Made by a program: the position numbers and the translations under genes. The notes beneath the pieces were generated by a model. That model was not told the origin of the DNA, ran no database searches, and worked only from the letters and a program-made list of their open reading frames with translations. 64,000 nucleotides of DNA from Sediminispirochaeta smaragdinae DSM 11293 (lineage in GTDB: Bacteria; Spirochaetota; Spirochaetia; DSM-16054; Sediminispirochaetaceae): the NCBI RefSeq assembly GCF_000143985.1, contig NC_014364.1, positions 4,538,582 to 4,602,581 of the forward strand, written 5' to 3'. Shown piece after piece: positions 26,634 through 42,830 of the stretch. Position 1 is the first letter of the stretch; every line of letters begins with the position of its first letter.

Positions 26634-27368
26634 CTAAGACAATCGGGGATAGATACGCGTTTTCGCCCGCTGAAGATGAGACTCGTCGTCGATCTCACCC
26701 CAGACCAGATCCGGAACAAGGTGACAGGCGATCGGCTTTTTCCTGGAAGAGGCAACAAGGGCGGTCTCATATTCGACCTTGAGGCTTTCCGAAAAAAGCC
26801 GTTCCGCCTCGATACAGAGGCGGCTGTAGCCCTCGGGCGAGAGGAGGCTTACCCCCACAAGCTCCCCGCAAGGAGGCCCAGACAACCGCTTTCGCACCTT
26901 GCCCATATCGACAAGATAGCCCTCGGGAGCATAGATCCACACCTCGTCTCCGCTGCCGGTAAATCCCGACATGAGGATGCAATCGGATTCAGGCTGCTCC
27001 TTCAGCGCCGCCAGGGCACGGCTTTCATAGATAAGGTCAGATTCAAGAAGGAAAAAAGCCGCATCACCAAGGGCCTTGCGGGCCTGATAGAGGCTGTACA
27101 TGGAACCGGAATCGGCATAGTCGGGATTATGGACGGTTCCGACAAAACCGCCGGAATCTGCTGCAAGCTTCTCGTAAAAATCGGCCAAATGCCCGGTAAC
27201 GATAACAACCTTTTCAACCCCGGCGGCTTTAAGTCGGTCCAAAGATTCCTGAATAATCGGCTTTTCTCCGATCTGCAGAAACCCCTTAGGCGCTTCAAGG
27301 CCACGTTTTCCGAGGCGGGTGCCCCGGCCGGCGGCAAGAATCACCGCCGTTTTTACTCCCATCGGCAT
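26634..27368 (-). CDS. 2-aminoethylphosphonate cytidylyltransferase-like nucleotidyltransferase (PntC-type)
   Basis: About 245 residues with a sugar-nucleotidyltransferase fold: AVILAAGRGTRLGKRGLEAPKGFL (nucleotide loop, residues about 6-29), VEKVVIVTGHLADFYEKL and an acidic metal site in FFLLESDLIY. In known PntC proteins a domain of this type is often fused to AEP transaminase and makes CMP-AEP. Here the two are separate genes only ten bases apart. The reading frame is open much further upstream but that part is antisense-like, and MPMGVK fits the family start. It probably activates AEP for transfer to a glycan or lipid. A phosphocholine cytidylyltransferase-like role is an alternative. Confidence 0.72.
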   Translation of the reverse strand: MPMGVKTAVILAAGRGTRLGKRGLEAPKGFLQIGEKPIIQESLDRLKAAGVEKVVIVTGHLADFYEKLAADSGGFVGTVHNPDYADSGSMYSLYQARKALGDAAFFLLESDLIYESRALAALKEQPESDCILMSGFTGSGDEVWIYAPEGYLVDMGKVRKRLSGPPCGELVGVSLLSPEGYSRLCIEAERLFSESLKVEYETALVASSRKKPIACHLVPDLVWGEIDDESHLQRAKTRIYPRLS

Positions 27369-27378
27369 CGGAACCGTC

Positions 27379-28479
27379 CTATTTCCGGGAATCCATGAGC
27401 CGCCGGAAAACAGCCAAAAGCCTATCGATGTCCGCATCAAGAAGATCACCCATATTGGCGATGCGGAAAATCGAATGAAAGAGTCCGCCCTGCCCAGCAT
27501 AGATGATGAAGTTCTCTTTTCTCAGCTCATCGTGGAGCTCTTCGTAGCTGTAGCCCTCGGGCAGGTGAAAGCTCGAAAGCATGGAACTGTATTCATCTTC
27601 TTTTAGAAAGCGGCGGATACCCATGGCATCAAGTTCGGCACGAATACGAACCGAAAGCTCCCGGTAACGCTCGTTCCTCGCCTTCCAGCCGCCGGCCTCT
27701 TCGAACTCCTTCAAAGCTTCCTGGAGTGCGACCGCAACATGAGTCGCCTGGGTAAAAGGCGAAAAGCCCTCTTTCTGCTTTTGGTAATAGGCAAAAAGAT
27801 CGAGATACAGGGTGGCAGCGGCGCTCTTGCCCTGTTCCAGAAGATCTTTTCTGACAAGGACGAAATTGAGACCGGGGATACCGTGGATACACTTGTTTGC
27901 CGTGGAAGCAAGGGCGGCAACGTTCCACTTTTCAAGCTCGATTCGTTCACCGCCGAAACTGGAGACCGCATCCAGGAGCATCGGCTTATTGTATGTGACA
28001 CACAAGGCACCAAGGGCATCAAGGTCGTTAAGTCGTCCGGTGGTGGTTTCGTTGTGAATGGCGGAAACATGGGTAATGGAAGGGTCTTCCTTCAAAAGCC
28101 GCTCCGCCTCGGCAAGATTCATCGGCTCGGGCCAGGGACTTTTTACCAGCACCATCTGCTTTCCGTGGGTCTTGACCATAGACGCAATTCGCTCGCCGTA
28201 TACCCCGTTTGAAATCACCAATAATTTACCGTCGGCGGGAAGAAGGCTGGAAATCATCGCCTCAACGGCACAGGTTCCGCTTCCGGTCATCACCAGGGTC
28301 TCGAAATGTTCGCTTCCACCTTCGTAGATCGCAGCAAGCCGTTTCTTGACATCAAGCATCAAAGCGGCAAAATCAGGCTCACGGTGGCACATATCTTCTC
28401 TCTGCAGGCTCTCCCTCACCCGGTCGCTGATGGTTACCGGGCCGGGGTTAAGCAGAATAACAGGTCTCTTTTTCGTCAT
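27379..28479 (-). CDS. phnW: 2-aminoethylphosphonate:pyruvate transaminase
   Basis: 366 residues of the class V PLP aminotransferase family. Visible are LLNPGPVTISDRVRESL at the start, the phosphate-binding turn TGSGTCAVEAMI, ETTTGRLND, LLDAVSSFGGERIE (PLP Asp) and the Schiff-base Lys in STANKCIHGIPGL (about residue 193). PhnW exchanges the amino group between AEP and pyruvate. Here, next to PEP mutase and phosphonopyruvate decarboxylase, it should run towards AEP synthesis rather than breakdown. No phosphonatase (phnX) is present, which supports the biosynthetic direction. Confidence 0.9.
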   Translation of the reverse strand: MTKKRPVILLNPGPVTISDRVRESLQREDMCHREPDFAALMLDVKKRLAAIYEGGSEHFETLVMTGSGTCAVEAMISSLLPADGKLLVISNGVYGERIASMVKTHGKQMVLVKSPWPEPMNLAEAERLLKEDPSITHVSAIHNETTTGRLNDLDALGALCVTYNKPMLLDAVSSFGGERIELEKWNVAALASTANKCIHGIPGLNFVLVRKDLLEQGKSAAATLYLDLFAYYQKQKEGFSPFTQATHVAVALQEALKEFEEAGGWKARNERYRELSVRIRAELDAMGIRRFLKEDEYSSMLSSFHLPEGYSYEELHDELRKENFIIYAGQGGLFHSIFRIANMGDLLDADIDRLLAVFRRLMDSRK

Positions 28480-28507: not shown

Positions 28508-29653
28508 TTATCGGTTTTGTAAGAAAGCGGCAAAGCGCTTTGAAAGCTCTTCCGGCCGCTGTGTAGGTCTGGGCAGGTCTTCCGGACTGCCGGGAATCGT
28601 CCGGGCCCTGATAAAGGTGATGCCGGAAAGATCCTTTTGGGACAATAGGTCCCGAAGCTCTTCCGGACTCCTGGTTTCAAAAACATTACGGTAACCACAG
28701 GCGGCGGCTACGGCACAGAGATCAACGGAAGCGGAAACGGTGGCCTGACCGCCGGTAGATTCGTGCATGCCGTTGTCGAGGACGATATGCACAAGGTTTT
28801 CGGGACGCTGATAACCGTTGGTCGCAAGGGCTCCCATACGCATGAGTATCGCTCCGTCGCCGTCCACGGCAATAACCCTTCCCGATCGTACCGTGGAGAT
28901 ACCGAGGCCGATGCTCGAAACACAGCCCATGGAACCTGCCATATAAAAATTGCCTGATCGGTCATTAAGTGCATAAAGCTCTCGTCCGGTATAACCGGTG
29001 GTCCCGAGAAGCGGTACATCATCGCCGGCGGCATCGAGAATAGCCTTGAGCATGTCGCTGCGACTTGCGTTCGCATCTGTCTCGAAGAAGGCACCACCAC
29101 GCCGGCTAACCTTTGGGACACGAATTTCCATGCTGCTTTTCAGCGCCTTCTTTGCCACCGATCCCTTTCGCATCACCAAAGCGTAGGGAAGAGAGGTGCC
29201 GTCCATGGAGGCAATGGCGCGATCAAGGACCTCACCCACTTTTGCTTCCTCGTCAGGAAAGTACTCCCATGGGATCTGCATCACATCAAGCATGGCGGTG
29301 GTTATCGGCCCCATGAGACCGTGCTGTACCGCATCGGGCGGAGCCCCAGGCTCTCCCCGGAGGGTAACGATCAGCAAGACCGGAATACGATAGGTATTGT
29401 TCAAGCTGGTCAGCGGATTTACCGCATTCCCCAGCCCGGAGTTCTGGAACATGGCCACACCCCGAATTCCTGCAAGATGGCTTCCGGAAGCAATGGCAAC
29501 GGCATCCCCCTCGTTGACCGCCGGGATATAGCGAACGGAAGGATCATCGATAACATGGTTGATAAAGGGTTTCAGGTAAGAGCAGGGTACCCCGCTCCAA
29601 AGGCCAAAACCCCGCTCTAAAGCCTGGCGCACAAAAAGTTCGGCTTCAATCAT
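28508..29653 (-). CDS. Phosphonopyruvate decarboxylase
   Basis: 381 residues, thiamine-diphosphate dependent. The pyrimidine-binding part has VPAVNEGDAVAIASGSHLAG (catalytic Glu near residue 45). The diphosphate-binding part has the GDG motif in IAVDGDGAILMRMGALATNG and LDNGMHESTGGQAT (Mg site). It is shorter than pyruvate decarboxylase because the middle domain is missing, as in known Ppd/AepY/Fom2 enzymes. It turns phosphonopyruvate into phosphonoacetaldehyde and CO2, pulling the unfavourable mutase step forward. It is 28 bases upstream of phnW and 15 bases downstream of the mutase gene. Confidence 0.92.
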   Translation of the reverse strand: MIEAELFVRQALERGFGLWSGVPCSYLKPFINHVIDDPSVRYIPAVNEGDAVAIASGSHLAGIRGVAMFQNSGLGNAVNPLTSLNNTYRIPVLLIVTLRGEPGAPPDAVQHGLMGPITTAMLDVMQIPWEYFPDEEAKVGEVLDRAIASMDGTSLPYALVMRKGSVAKKALKSSMEIRVPKVSRRGGAFFETDANASRSDMLKAILDAAGDDVPLLGTTGYTGRELYALNDRSGNFYMAGSMGCVSSIGLGISTVRSGRVIAVDGDGAILMRMGALATNGYQRPENLVHIVLDNGMHESTGGQATVSASVDLCAVAAACGYRNVFETRSPEELRDLLSQKDLSGITFIRARTIPGSPEDLPRPTQRPEELSKRFAAFLQNR

Positions 29654-29668
29654 TACAGCCCTCCGGTG

Positions 29669-31291
29669 TTAGAAGAGGTTTCCGGCAAGCACGACATCTT
29701 CCAGCGTGTCGATATCGAGCCAGTAACCAGTCGTATAGATAACCCTCACACGCTCGCCGTTGGCAACCAAAGCGTTGAGCAGATCACTCATCCGCGCATC
29801 CGGATTTGCCGCCGTGAGGCTCTCGACAAGCTTGTCAAGGAGAAGGCGGTGATCGGATGAGACCTTAAGAAACCCGGTCCACTCGCCGTGGGTCCTCTTT
29901 TCAGGCAGATGTTCACTCATCTCGGTCAATGAAATTTCCTGGCCGAAGGCATCGCGGCCGTAGGGGCGGCTGCACTGAACATAGTCGGCAAACCTGCCCT
30001 TATTGACACTTTCACTCCAGTTGGTATCCACCACGATGGAAAAATCGGCATGACTTTCGAGCAGTAGCTGGAGGATATGCTTTTTGAAAAGGACATCCCC
30101 GTAGGAAACGACCAACTCTTTGCCGGCATCTTCCGAGGCAAGGGACTTGAGGGCACAGGAAAGGCTGGCAAGCTCTCCGGTGCTCTCAAAGTTGTCGTTA
30201 TCCGCATAATCGATATTGGAAAGATTGACCGTCTCTTTTGCATAGCCCCTGACAACGGTGATATCCTTCACGCCGACGGAATTGTAACCGTCCACCACAT
30301 GGGCAAGAAGGGGCTGGCCGGAGACCGGTACCATTGCCTTAGGCCGTTTTTCGGTAAGTTCACCAAGCTCCTTACCGCGACTGGCGGCAAGGATCACGGC
30401 CCGGACCGCCTTTCCCCGTTTGGGAAGATAGCGCTTTTCGGCCTCCTGCAGCTCCGCAGCACCCTGAAGGCGAAATATTTCCTTTACCGGAGCGATGGAA
30501 TCCTCTATGGCCATGAGAGACTCTTCGGCCATAAGGGTAGCCGCATTCTTCTGCATCGAGGCAATGGCCGTTCGTATCATGTGGTTTGCCCAGATAGCGA
30601 TGGAAATGCCGGCCTCTCTGAACTGATCCGTAGGGGTAGCATAGTATTTTGTCGGAACGATGACCACCGGAAGCCGGTCGCCCCACTCCTTTTTGAAAGC
30701 AAGGATCTCGTCGGGTACCGACAGAGCACTGTGCATGAGAATGGCATCTGCTCCGGCCTTCCGATAGGCTTCTGCCCGGCGCATCGCCTCCTTCAGCCCC
30801 CAGCCCGCAATAAAGGCCTCGACCCGTGCAACAATGGAAAAATCATCGTCGCCCTGGGCATCCTTTCCGGCCTTAATCTTACCGCAGAACTCCTCAATGT
30901 CGGCCAGAGGCTGGGCAGTCCCTTTAATGAAACTATTGGTCTTGGGAAAAAGCTTATCCTCGATACAGACCGCGGCAATATCACGCTGTTCGAGCTTACG
31001 CACCAGCCGCTGCATATTGTTGAAGTTACCGTAACCGGTGTCACCATCAAGCAAAATGGGTATCGTGGTGGCATCCGACATAAACTCAAGCATGTCCAGG
31101 ACCTGAGTCCAGCTTGCTTCGTTGTTATCCCGTACCCCGTACTGAGCCGAAAGAGAAAGACCGCTTCCCCAGATCCCCTTGAAACCGGCCTCTTCGACGA
31201 TCTTCGCGCTGATACCGTTGTGCGCCTCAAGAATAAACTCAAGCCGATCTGAATTCAGCAAATTCCGAAATTGTGTGGTTTTCCTTGTCAT
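29669..31291 (-). CDS. Phosphoenolpyruvate phosphomutase fused to a nucleotidyltransferase domain
   Basis: About 540 residues. Residues 1-290 form a PEP mutase/isocitrate-lyase barrel: [30 protein letters not shown] (metal site) and the diagnostic loop [11 protein letters not shown] (111-121), which separates the mutase from lyases. Residues from about 299 form a nucleotidyltransferase domain ([44 protein letters not shown]). The mutase makes the C-P bond by converting PEP to phosphonopyruvate. The fused domain resembles those found in other bacterial Ppm proteins but departs from the usual GxGxR loop. I start at MTRKTTQF; a TTG ten codons earlier is possible. Confidence 0.92.
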
Positions 31292-31329
31292 GACATAGTC
31301 CTGTTGTTCTTTCTTTATCAAGGTAACGA

Positions 31330-38439: not shown

Positions 38440-39846
38440 CTAATAGGCATTCCTGTCGATAACACTTTTGAAAGGGGTAAGCAGAATAATCTTTAGATCG
38501 AGCAGAATCGACCAGTTCTCAATGTAATAGATATCGGCGGCTACCCGTTCCTCGATGGAGGTATCGCCGCGAAGGCCGTTGACTTGAGCCCATCCGGTGA
38601 TACCGGCCTTCATGCCGTGACGCTGCATGTATCCGGTATAGCGCTCTTTAAATTGTTCGACCCAATAGGGGCGCTCCGGTCTGGGGCCGACGACCGACAT
38701 CGTTCCTGTAAATACGTTAAAAAACTGCGGGGTTTCGTCAAGGGACAATTTTCGCAAGATTCGACCGACAGGTGTTACTCGGGGATCGTTCTTGGTAGTC
38801 CAGATGATATCGGAATCCCCCGGCTGCTGCACAGACATGGTACGAAATTTCAGTACCTTGAATAACTTGTTGTCGAGTCCGACCCGCTCCTGTGAAAGGA
38901 AGACAGGTCCTTTCGATGTAAGTTTGATCGCCAGAGCAATAAGAATATAAAAGGGAGAAAAAAGGATGATAAACAACAGGGAAAAGATAATATCGAACAA
39001 ACGCTTAAAAAAACGATTAAAGCCCCTTCGAGCAGGGATATCGCGCAAAGTGATGAGAGGGATTCCTTCAAGGCTCTCAAGCCGGCCCTTTGAAGTAATC
39101 AATTCGCTGAAACTGGGTATCACATGCATATGGATTCCTTCATGATTGCACATCTGTATTGCCCCTTGGAGCATATCACTGCTGGTGGAATCACATGCAA
39201 AGATAACGTGATGAGGCCTGATTTCGGTTAGGAGTCGGGGAAGATCCTCAAACGAACCAAGAATCTTATCACTTTCGACCTTAACTTCTCCCTCTTCAGG
39301 GAGGCGGACAAAGGCTTTGACCAGATAGCCGTAAAGCCGGTTTCGTTGAATCACCTCTTCGAACTGCTTTGCGGTTCTGCCGGTGCCAAGAACCAGGATA
39401 AGACGTATACGCCGACCTTTCAAGAGCATTTTCTTAATAAAGAATCTGGCAATTGCCCTACCGAGGGAAACAAAAGCGACATTCAGAATTCCGAAATAGA
39501 GTACGACCAGACGGCTATATCGATGGGTCTTGAGAAAGAAAATAACCCCCAGCGCCATGAAGATGGTGACGATTGTCCCCAGCACTACCCGATTAAACTC
39601 ATCAGTTACTAAGCCAATCTTCCCCGGACGATACAAATCCATAAAATAGAAGACCATCACCTGCGAAGAGGCAAGGACCAGGCCTATATACATATATTCC
39701 CGAAGATCGATGGCATAGAACTCGAATAGATTTGCTTCCTGAATGATAAAACGAACGGCAACTGCGGCACAAAAGGCGAGGATGGTCGATAGGGTATCGA
39801 CCACCACAAAAAGCAGCATGTAGGTCTCATTTCTTTCTCGAAACAT
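38440..39846 (-). CDS. Second polyprenyl-phosphate sugar-1-phosphate transferase (WcaJ/WbaP-like)
   Basis: 468 residues, with the same architecture as the enzyme at 31369: four membrane helices, a Rossmann-like domain (IRLILVLGTGRTAKQFEEVI) and a catalytic domain with FKVLKFRTMSVQQPGD, RKLSLDETPQFFNVFTGTMSVVGPRPERP and KAGITGWAQVNGLRGDT. The DETPQ and GWAQVNG forms are typical of the WcaJ-like group that uses UDP-glucose. It starts synthesis of a lipid-linked repeat. It overlaps the upstream CDP-alcohol phosphotransferase-like gene by 20 bases. Confidence 0.9.
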   Translation of the reverse strand: MFRERNETYMLLFVVVDTLSTILAFCAAVAVRFIIQEANLFEFYAIDLREYMYIGLVLASSQVMVFYFMDLYRPGKIGLVTDEFNRVVLGTIVTIFMALGVIFFLKTHRYSRLVVLYFGILNVAFVSLGRAIARFFIKKMLLKGRRIRLILVLGTGRTAKQFEEVIQRNRLYGYLVKAFVRLPEEGEVKVESDKILGSFEDLPRLLTEIRPHHVIFACDSTSSDMLQGAIQMCNHEGIHMHVIPSFSELITSKGRLESLEGIPLITLRDIPARRGFNRFFKRLFDIIFSLLFIILFSPFYILIALAIKLTSKGPVFLSQERVGLDNKLFKVLKFRTMSVQQPGDSDIIWTTKNDPRVTPVGRILRKLSLDETPQFFNVFTGTMSVVGPRPERPYWVEQFKERYTGYMQRHGMKAGITGWAQVNGLRGDTSIEERVAADIYYIENWSILLDLKIILLTPFKSVIDRNAY

Positions 39847-40555
39847 GCTCTACCTTCCGAATCAATTTAAGGAGGACCAGTACGCATCCCAACCCATAGA
39901 AAACCGTATAGAAAATCATAACATATCCCAGCCCTCCGGCAAGAAGGGCCACAAAAAGCGCTGGCATCAACACCCCGGTGACACCCAGATTTTCACTCAG
40001 GAGCTTTTCCAAACCGATTGATTTTTTTGCTTCCGCCTTTCCTTCAGGAGCAATATTTCGGTAGCTTTGGAAGGCAAGCCGCATCAGGATATTAGAAGCT
40101 GCAGCTACTCCCCCAAGTAATACCCAGACATTACCGTCGGGCTCCCACGCGAAAAAAAGCGCGTTTCGAACGGCAGCAGCATAGCCGAGGCTTAACAAGA
40201 CCGTAACATAGGCCACATATCCGCCGATTGCATCGGCCCATGCACCATAGGGTCCGGTAGTACCGGTGGCTCGCGCCATGTTTCCATCGGCACAATCAAG
40301 AACAGCAAACATATTAAAAAGAAGAGCCCCAATAATCGCCCCCCCCAGAGAAGCCGATCCAAACAGAAGGGCGGCAAACACACAAATAAGGGCAGAAAGA
40401 TACGAAACAGTATTGGCTCGTAGCCCCCAACGTAGACAAAGCCAGGCAACAGGTACCGAAAGCGGCCTAAGAATATAACGAGTCCAAAGAGAATCGGCAC
40501 GGTTCTTTTCTTCCGGGAGCGAATCTCTGATCTCTTTCATTGAAATATGGGTCAT
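39827..40555 (-). CDS. CDP-alcohol phosphotransferase-family membrane protein with a changed catalytic motif
   Basis: 242 residues with about six transmembrane helices. The family motif DxxDGxxAR...GxxxDxxxD is present as LDCADGNMARATGTTGPYGAWADAIGG: Asp87, Asp90, Gly91, Arg95, Gly104 and Asp108 are kept, but the last Asp (proposed catalytic base) is Gly112. Family members move a phospho-alcohol from a CDP carrier to an acceptor. With a CMP-AEP pathway in the same locus, it is the best candidate for transferring AEP or a related head group to a lipid or glycan, unless it is inactive. It is the only such gene here and is coupled to the WcaJ-like gene. Confidence 0.78.
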   Translation of the reverse strand: MTHISMKEIRDSLPEEKNRADSLWTRYILRPLSVPVAWLCLRWGLRANTVSYLSALICVFAALLFGSASLGGAIIGALLFNMFAVLDCADGNMARATGTTGPYGAWADAIGGYVAYVTVLLSLGYAAAVRNALFFAWEPDGNVWVLLGGVAAASNILMRLAFQSYRNIAPEGKAEAKKSIGLEKLLSENLGVTGVLMPALFVALLAGGLGYVMIFYTVFYGLGCVLVLLKLIRKVEHVSRKK

Positions 40556-40560
40556 GAAAA

Positions 40561-41640
40561 TTACCCCTCCCCGGATACTATATCTTGGAGTATGATTTCA
40601 AATCGATCATCAAGTCTTTGCAGCTGATCATGATAGGCAGTATAGCTGTTTTGAGCAATACGTCGACAAAAGGTATCATCCGTCAGTATTGCATCTACTT
40701 TTTCCAACAGGTCTTTTGCATCCCAGGCAAACGGGACATAGGTTTCACCATCAACAAATATATCGGGCCAGGTCTCCAAATGATTCATATCAGGTTTTAG
40801 CAACACCGCACCGGAAAGAACCGCTTCGAAGTCCCGAAAACAGAGCTCACCCCAGCCGAAGGGGGAGAGGACTATTCGGGACCTGGACAATTCGTGATTG
40901 TATTGGCGCTGCCCCACCTCTCCTGTGAGAAAACGAGGATCCCCCTCTATCTTTTGCAAAATAAGTCGGCGCTGCTCCGCAAGGCTGGGTTGCTTTACCA
41001 ATCCCAGGCGTGCGTGCACATCGATATCACGGGCCTTAGAAAAAAGCTTGGAAAAAGCGACACGGCGGACAGGGGAATGAAAGGCTCTTACAAGCTTGAG
41101 ATCCACCAGACGTGCTATGGCCACGGCAAAACGTTGTCGATACTTTCTCTTGGGAAACTGACCGATACCGATATTCCACGAAAGCCTTAGTTTCTTTAAT
41201 TGTTCGGTATCTTCTACCGCCGCCCTTGTTATCGGGTTCGGATCATCAACACCGTGCTCACGATGGAAATAGTCGGAGTACAGTTCCTTTCCGTAGAGAG
41301 AATGCTGGTATAGAGAACGATCCCGGAATAATGCCTTCTGATAAAAGCGGTCTACATAGGGCAACACCTGTGCACGGGGTATCCCTCCCCCGGCATCATC
41401 GTGAAAAAAAATGATGCGATCATACTTATCACGAAGGCGGCGCATCACCTCCATATCGACCCGATCGGGTTTAAGAAACCAGCGAACCATAACGAGAATC
41501 CGATTACGATCACGCTGCAAGCAAAAATCGACGGAATTGGTGTAATCGAAGAGGGCTTGATCATGATAGAGAAGGAAAGGCCGTAAGGTGTGAAAGCAGG
41601 CAATACGATCATAGATAGAAAGCACGGTAATATTAGCCAT
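40561..41640 (-). CDS. Putative glycosyltransferase of an unnamed family (paralogue of the gene at 55901)
   Basis: 359 residues without membrane segments. The C-terminal half has LSPFGWGELCFRDFEAVLSG, KPDMNHLETWPDIFVDGETYVPF, which resembles the donor-binding region of GT-B/exostosin-like enzymes ('PFGWGE..FRdfEa...G...lkp'). The middle has KLRLSWNIGIGQFPKRKYRQR. Both blocks are shared with the protein at 55901. It probably adds a sugar or reads a sugar-nucleotide, but I know of no named family. It is six bases upstream of the CDP-alcohol phosphotransferase-like gene, so they are probably used together. Confidence 0.6.
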   Translation of the reverse strand: MANITVLSIYDRIACFHTLRPFLLYHDQALFDYTNSVDFCLQRDRNRILVMVRWFLKPDRVDMEVMRRLRDKYDRIIFFHDDAGGGIPRAQVLPYVDRFYQKALFRDRSLYQHSLYGKELYSDYFHREHGVDDPNPITRAAVEDTEQLKKLRLSWNIGIGQFPKRKYRQRFAVAIARLVDLKLVRAFHSPVRRVAFSKLFSKARDIDVHARLGLVKQPSLAEQRRLILQKIEGDPRFLTGEVGQRQYNHELSRSRIVLSPFGWGELCFRDFEAVLSGAVLLKPDMNHLETWPDIFVDGETYVPFAWDAKDLLEKVDAILTDDTFCRRIAQNSYTAYHDQLQRLDDRFEIILQDIVSGEG

Positions 41641-41708: not shown

Positions 41709-42830
41709 ATGAACCACCCTACCATAGGTGTATTTTCAAAGCAACTTGACAATTGGACAAGCGGGAGCGGCCATCATTTGCATGAAATGATGAAGCATAT
41801 CCTGGAACTGAATACCAAACTCCGCTTTGTGTTCATCCACTACGAAGCAAGCGATAATCCGATCTACAAGCAAGTGGACGAAGAAATCCTCATTCCCCGC
41901 AATCCCCTGCGTGCGGCGGCAATCCTCCGCCGACACCATTTCGATGTCCTTCATTTCACCCCACTGACGATCTTCGCCCCTATATGGGCCACTTCGGGCA
42001 AGAAAACGGCAACCATCCACGGGGTCGAGCAGCTTTTAGTCCCCCAATTCTATGGACATGCCGAAATGCTGCACGAAAGAATACTTGTACCGTACTATGC
42101 CCGAAAAATGGATCATATTATTACCGTATCACAAACAAGTAAGAATTACTTTGTCGAGCACTTTCGAGTACGTCCGGAACGGGTGAGCGTTTGCTATAAC
42201 GCTGTTAACAGTGCATATAGGCTGCTGCCGGAAGACGGACGACTGCTCCCGAAACGATTGCTTCTGGGACCCGAAGAACCATTTATTTTTCATTTAAGCC
42301 GCTTTTCAGAGCGGAAAAACCCCTGGATCCTTTTACGTGCCTTTGCCGAATTTATAAAAAAACGGGCCGACACCGGGATAAAGCTGGTCATTGGTGGAGG
42401 GCAATGGGAAAACGAAAGGGTTCGTGCCGAACTACAACGTCTTAACATAGAAAATCGGGTAGTTCTTGCCGGATTTGTGACGGAAGAAGAGGCTGTCCAA
42501 CTTTACAACAGTGCAAAGCTTTTCGTGTTTCCTTCATTGGCCGAAGGATTCGGTATGCCGAATATCGAAGCAATGGCCTGTGGTTGCCCGGTCATCACCT
42601 CACCGATTTTTGCAATTCCCGAAATTGTAGGGGATGCAGCTCTGGTAATGAAAGATCCCCAGGATTTCCACGAACTGGCAAACCTGTTTGAACAGCTTGT
42701 TTCCGATACGACACAACGACGGGAATTGATCCGACGCGGGCTTCAGCATGCAGAAAGCTTTAAAAGCTGGGTGCCAAGTGCCCGGAAGATGCTGGATGTC
42801 TGGGAAAAGCTGGCAGGGGTTACAGAATAG
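41709..42830 (+). CDS. GT4-family glycosyltransferase
   Basis: 373 residues, GT-B fold: GVFSKQLDNWTSGSGHHLHEMM, VLHFTPLTIFAPIWATSGKKTATIHG, DHIITVSQTSKNYFVEHF and the donor half with IFHLSRFSERKNPWILLRAF, VVLAGFVTEEEAVQLYNSAKLFVFPSLAEGFGMPNIEAMACG. It belongs to the mannosyltransferase-like group. It is the only plus-strand gene in the 39-kb glycan locus and has a GGAGGG box. Its 3' end overlaps the convergent GT4 gene by 11 bases, so the locus is split into two minus-strand blocks around it. Confidence 0.9.
   Translation: MNHPTIGVFSKQLDNWTSGSGHHLHEMMKHILELNTKLRFVFIHYEASDNPIYKQVDEEILIPRNPLRAAAILRRHHFDVLHFTPLTIFAPIWATSGKKTATIHGVEQLLVPQFYGHAEMLHERILVPYYARKMDHIITVSQTSKNYFVEHFRVRPERVSVCYNAVNSAYRLLPEDGRLLPKRLLLGPEEPFIFHLSRFSERKNPWILLRAFAEFIKKRADTGIKLVIGGGQWENERVRAELQRLNIENRVVLAGFVTEEEAVQLYNSAKLFVFPSLAEGFGMPNIEAMACGCPVITSPIFAIPEIVGDAALVMKDPQDFHELANLFEQLVSDTTQRRELIRRGLQHAESFKSWVPSARKMLDVWEKLAGVTE

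Follow-up and report, generated by a model that had tools for sequence, protein, structure and literature searches.

A gene in the window (the whole stretch of 64,000 nucleotides analysed here) encodes a protein that, by its sequence, belongs to a largely monophyletic branch of the CDP-alcohol phosphotransferase fold in which the fourth aspartate (Asp4) of the family signature has been lost. This Asp4-less subfamily is real, yet it is not phosphonate-specific, and the glycine found at residue 112 of the window protein probably represents a distinct, working variant, being neither an error nor a marker of phosphonate transfer.

The canonical signature, D1xxD2GxxAR...GxxxD3xxxD4, is incomplete in the window protein: direct reading gave D87, D90, G91, A94, R95, G104 and D108, with Gly112 at the D4 position, exactly the residues of the original prediction, and PF01066 (CDP-OH_P_transf) is matched at 27.1 bits (cut-off 22). 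Two trivial explanations, already named with that prediction, were ruled out. The Asp is not shifted by one or two residues, since neither neighbour of the glycine in the stretch D108-A-I-G-G112-Y-V-A-Y is Asp, and nearly all of the clade is alike in this, with Asp at 113 in L116 and L117 only among the matches listed. Nor is codon 112 a sequencing error, since Gly codons occur in independent genomes, GGA both in the window and in the same-genus genome G375 (98%-identical protein) and GGC in the 67%-identical L046. Purifying selection acts on the gene, with a dN/dS of about 0.07 against G375 and about 0.12 against L046. Two further PF01066 genes are present in the same genome, and each of them keeps the fourth Asp. 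The nucleotide motif at TM1, P(D/N)xx(T/S), reads A47-N48-T-V-S51 in the window protein; among the matches listed, the Pro is changed to Ala in 59/90 clade members and the S/T is retained in 90/90.

Features of the window discussed in the text, with positions counted from the first letter of the window
Feature	Position	Strand	Basis
Second MobA-like nucleotidyltransferase	26634..27500	-	Best NCBIfam profile is the IPCT part of IPCT-DIPPS, 60.6 bits (cut-off 580)
PhnW/AepZ, 2-aminoethylphosphonate aminotransferase	27379..28479	-	TIGR03301, 380.9 bits, over cut-off
Ppd, phosphonopyruvate decarboxylase	28508..29653	-	TIGR03297, 405.0 bits, over cut-off
Ppm-PntC, PEP mutase fused to MobA-like nucleotidyltransferase	29669..31321	-	Pfam; NCBIfam Ppm, 384.9 bits, over cut-off
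WbaP-like sugar transferase (PF02397), 20-bp overlap with the 3' end of the Gly112 gene	38440..39846	-	Pfam
CDP-alcohol phosphotransferase homologue, 242 aa, Gly112 at the fourth-Asp position	39827..40555	-	ORF, Pfam, residue reading, fold model
Codon 112, GGA, Gly where the family has Asp4	40220..40222	-	Codon read; coordinates counted from the start at 40555
Glycosyltransferase-like gene (PF13524), 5 bp upstream of the Gly112 gene	40561..41640	-	Pfam
GT4-type glycosyltransferase, divergent	41709..42830	+	Pfam

The window protein is predicted to have the membrane-helix fold of the solved CDP-alcohol phosphotransferases, according to an AlphaFold2 model built from 78 sequences (mean pLDDT 94.7, pTM 0.89). 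The best structural match of this model is AF2299 (4q7c; Z 19.7, rmsd 3.2, 210 residues), the next are IPCT-DIPPS and PIP synthases, and all of the top 18 rows are CDP-alcohol phosphotransferases, with the caveat that high Z scores can arise by chance for helical bundles. Foldseek concurs (AF2299, E 3.4e-5), and hmmsearch against AF2299 gave an E of 2.2e-17. AF2299 and the IPCT-DIPPS/AfDIPP synthase, from Archaeoglobus fulgidus, thus have the fold (Z 19.7 and 17.6) and the nucleotide signature in common with the window protein, but AF2299 has an Asp aligned opposite its Gly. Similarly, the mycobacterial and Renibacterium PIP synthases (PgsA1, RsPIPS) share the fold (Z 16-17) and the first seven signature residues, but in the accessible parts of the reports on them they have Asp4 (D93), which the window protein lacks (PMC6506517, PMC4634129).

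The loss of Asp4 is found well beyond the window. In 85 distinct relatives (93 rows minus 8 duplicates) the fourth-Asp column holds G in 81, A in 2, S in 2 and D in none, and the seven other signature residues, D1-D3 included, are invariant in 85/85, both among the matches listed. The scan of the genome collection, in which the best 80 of 109 confirmed relatives were kept, is by itself no frequency measure, one of its two peptide patterns requiring G at the site; its relatives come from records titled Spirochaetota, Bacillota, Bacteroidota, Elusimicrobiota, Actinomycetota, Pseudomonadota, SAR202 and others, many of these being metagenome bins whose phylum labels may in some cases be wrong. A whole-protein search of 392 Spirochaetota genomes gave a match in 44, with 13 strong matches (E<=1e-38) that all have Gly; among the 31 genomes with weaker matches the site was read in 17 loci, with Asp in 16 and Gly in one (L020). 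Profile searches of 291 and 247 genomes from two other classes recovered clade members in 2 genomes and 1 genome respectively (E<=1e-70); the site reads G, S and G in these three top matches, two of which are the centre genomes of the searches themselves. The whole-protein and profile searches, being less biased than the scan, agree with it.

In a tree with 26 outgroup sequences, the Asp4-less sequences form one clade of 92 tips (support 0.935), which, together with the G, A or S found in 85/85 relatives, bears out that part of the original suggestion in which the Gly form defines a distinct subfamily. When columns 111-113 were removed and more sequences included, the largest Asp-free clade had 94 tips (support 0.813), and the Gly forms of L020 and of a second L120 gene were placed outside it; both trees are without the incomplete members L087 and L104 and without L117, which has one unresolved residue. 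Seven second-tier Bacteroidia sequences (from L214-L218, L220 and L223) carry Gly or Ser at the fourth-Asp site and an Asp or Glu at the next residue, and His occupies the fourth-Asp position in two CDP-alcohol phosphotransferase relatives, L198:3-887, beside Ppm, and L085:3503-4210. The Gly forms outside the clade, the Bacteroidia forms and the His forms suggest that the fourth Asp was probably altered more than once. Next to the second-tier Bacteroidia transferase there is an NTP transferase in L218 and a HAD gene in L216, neighbourhoods that resemble the alternative inositol-lipid cluster of Bacteroides vulgatus as presented in the accessible part of its description (PMC9246714).

Structural papers describe the eight-residue signature as absolutely conserved and the fourth Asp as the catalytic base. 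Asp4 of PIP synthases (D93) binds the second metal and is proposed as base (PMC4634129, PMC6506517), and the change D93N nearly abolishes activity and keeps binding (PMC4634129), while for PSS a water activated by the fourth Asp is proposed (PMC8633023). Loss of activity could follow the loss of Asp4 given the D93N result, and the window protein could then be a homologue without catalysis, retained as a CDP-alcohol or membrane scaffold that might, for instance, bind nucleotide for neighbouring transferases. We find this very improbable, considering the purifying selection on the gene, the strict retention of the other signature residues across the relatives, the cytidylyltransferases fused or adjacent to members in other phyla, and the fact that the 84 loci scanned gave no Asp4-intact homologue (HMM E<=1e-4). 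As selection has kept the rest of the protein, an enzyme that still works but differs in its acceptor step is likelier than a dead one.

On balance we think it probable that the window protein is an active Asp4-less enzyme that moves a CMP-activated phospho- or phosphono-alcohol onto a surface-glycan precursor, using an acceptor that needs no Asp4. The CMP-activated substrate would be bound through the intact Asp1-Asp3, Gly and Arg of the signature and its phospho- or phosphono-alcohol passed to the precursor, with CMP released. The acceptor would be the glycan or its carrier, and an already ionised group on it, such as a phosphate or carboxylate, would make the missing base unnecessary, this group being held by Arg159 and Lys17, with no other acid taking the place of Asp4. 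In the window organism the donor might be the CMP-AEP of this locus, or else a different CDP-alcohol that the second MobA-like gene could make.

Arg159 is present in 83/83 readable distinct clade members vs 1/30 Asp4 relatives and Lys17 in 80/83 vs 2-3/30, among the matches listed, a contrast weakened by the uncertain alignment to the Asp4 relatives beyond the motif; N92 is a further clade-specific residue. A replacement acid for Asp4 was set aside on sequence grounds: across both halves of the clade, conservation among the matches listed revealed no acidic column besides D87, D90 and D108, and only the spirochaete branch has D21, E183 and E188 nearly fixed. We could further hypothesise, although we consider it unlikely, that the clade dropped Asp4 on adopting transfer to a phosphate or other ionised group of the glycan or of a polyprenyl carrier, with R159 and K17 serving the acceptor and with several donors, phosphonates included. 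If true, this would be a base-free reaction, with a linkage of anhydride or similar type as its product, and of a kind new to the fold.

Gly-form genes lie mostly among cell-surface sugar genes. Among the matches listed, the PF13524 glycosyltransferase is found in 36/51 spirochaete loci, as the immediate same-strand neighbour in 25/51, and a strong homologue of the divergent GT4 gene in 21/51. HMMs made from seeds confirmed by Pfam detected a nucleotidyltransferase no more than 10 kb away in 28/31 non-spirochaete loci among the matches listed, 23 of them of PF01467 type, and it is usually adjacent to the Gly-form gene. Such a PF01467 gene also adjoins the Gly-form gene in L205, from the class search, and the Gly form is fused to a PF01467 cytidylyltransferase in L103 (by Pfam) and L115 (by sequence). 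On the Lactiplantibacillus plantarum plasmid NZ_AP018408.1, a Gly-form gene (its Gly read by eye) overlaps an annotated tagD in an exopolysaccharide cluster, a gene pair of which we found no mention in the accessible part of the L. plantarum YC41 cps paper. Use of a CMP-activated substrate by the clade is most strongly supported by the adjacency and fusion of cytidylyltransferases in other phyla, but this is harder to extend to the window protein, because only 8/49 spirochaete-type loci have a nucleotidyltransferase in the flank, among the matches listed, so that for this branch a partner making the donor is mostly not seen.

A cytidylyltransferase coupled to the transferase domain is likewise found in IPCT-DIPPS. 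The partner enzyme in most non-spirochaete Asp4-less members is of the PF01467 type, unlike that of IPCT-DIPPS, which we take to be of the MobA-like type (PF12804). The idea of a tandem or heterodimer was rejected, as the adjacent Bacillota 'CDPOHP' matches turned out to be cytidylyltransferases (PF01467 where scanned), matching the fused half of L103 and L115. In the phages searched there was no match.

In the window, the Gly112 gene is set within a long surface-polysaccharide locus, and the Ppm-PntC, Ppd and PhnW set lies about 8.5 kb downstream on the same strand, with seven genes between. The claim that the gene shares a locus with the CMP-AEP pathway thus stands, all three enzymes scoring over their NCBIfam cut-offs, and the proposal of the Gly112 protein as candidate CMP-dependent transferase is a reasonable one, since neither a LicD (PF04991) nor a TagF-type (PF04464) match was found anywhere in the genome. 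Of the two MobA-like nucleotidyltransferases in the phosphonate set of the window, one is fused to Ppm and the other stands alone, and two nucleotidyltransferase domains occur likewise in the phosphonate loci L116, L099, L120 and L124.

A narrower function could be considered, namely that the window enzyme is a CMP-AEP transferase adding 2-aminoethylphosphonate to exopolysaccharide, with the Gly still not a phosphonate marker. The locus and strand shared with Ppm-PntC, Ppd and PhnW and the lack of LicD or TagF-type genes in the genome are compatible with it, as is the position of Asp4-less homologues directly before Ppm in L099, L105, L116, L117 and L120. The same can be said of a weak association at the genome level in Spirochaetota, where Ppm is found in 65, the Gly form in 13 and both in 7 of 392 genomes, so that Ppm occurs in 7/13 Gly-form vs 58/379 other genomes (Fisher p = 0.002, uncorrected for kinship). 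On the other hand, 6/13 Gly-form Spirochaetota genomes are without Ppm, and in G310, G194, G329 and G341 it is at a different place in the genome or on a separate contig. Moreover, L046, the closest non-congeneric relative, keeps the neighbouring glycan genes and has only a 38%-identical Ppm, and in the window itself the transferase and the phosphonate set are well separated. We regard this narrower function as possible but doubtful, and prefer the broader reading of a transferase for CMP-activated phospho- or phosphono-alcohols.

The claim that did not survive is that the Gly form marks phosphonate transfer. Among the matches listed, Ppm is present genome-wide at E<=1e-38 in 22/53 spirochaete-type and 8/31 other Gly-form genomes (9/31 non-spirochaete genomes at the looser E<=1e-15); at E<=1e-38 it was not found in 31/53 and 23/31, that is in 54/84, counts that are without L063 and include some incomplete genomes. 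Inside the Gly-form locus Ppm was seen in at least 1/49 spirochaete-type and at least 6/31 other loci, which are lower bounds, contigs and flanks often being short. G112 is therefore not fixed only in phosphonate loci, most Gly-form loci being without phosphonate genes, and the Gly form is spread through unrelated contexts. The reverse comparison, of fourteen regions around Ppm genes, agrees: in L190-L192 (Ppm 72-74% identical) Ppm, Ppd and PhnW are directly followed by a CDP-alcohol phosphotransferase with Asp4 intact, L198 (Ppm 43% identical) has the enzyme with His at this position, and in the other ten regions, several of them short, no CDP-alcohol phosphotransferase motif was found. With Asp4 kept in sister Ppm loci, phosphonate transfer by this fold, if any, has no need of the Gly. 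The Asp4-intact transferase at L192:4711-6495, directly after Ppm-Ppd-PhnW, is fused to a PAP2 phosphatase and is likely a phosphonolipid synthase.

In the open-licence literature we found no report of a CDP-alcohol phosphotransferase without the fourth Asp, nor of one acting in phosphonate or exopolysaccharide loci. The arrangement follows the LicC/PntC - LicD logic, in which an amino-alcohol phosphate or phosphonate is likewise activated with CTP for surface tailoring, but the accessible part of that study (Rice et al. 2019, PMC6697681) does not name a CDP-alcohol phosphotransferase in the transferase role, whereas the window has this fold and no LicD. A multi-phylum clade without Asp4, with an invariant Arg instead and with cytidylyltransferase fusions, would show that this base is dispensable in the fold. 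The clade is a concrete candidate for the transferases that add phospho- or phosphono-alcohols to bacterial surface glycans, set apart from the enzymes of sister phosphonate loci, which keep Asp4, are in some cases fused to PAP2 and seem fitted to phosphonolipids.

Two further kinds of neighbour were observed in Gly-form loci. L091:3425-6187 and its relatives in 14 loci encode a protein of some 900 residues, in which the N-terminal domain is YidC-like (60KD_IMP) and about 700 residues have no Pfam match; in many of these loci its gene is found at a distance of two or three genes from the Gly-form one. The MobA-like HMM also matched proteins of 603-613 residues at L086:919, L088:4737 and L089:966, in genomes where Ppm was not found; by length, these are similar to the fusion of NTP transferase and aminotransferase that was confirmed in L084.
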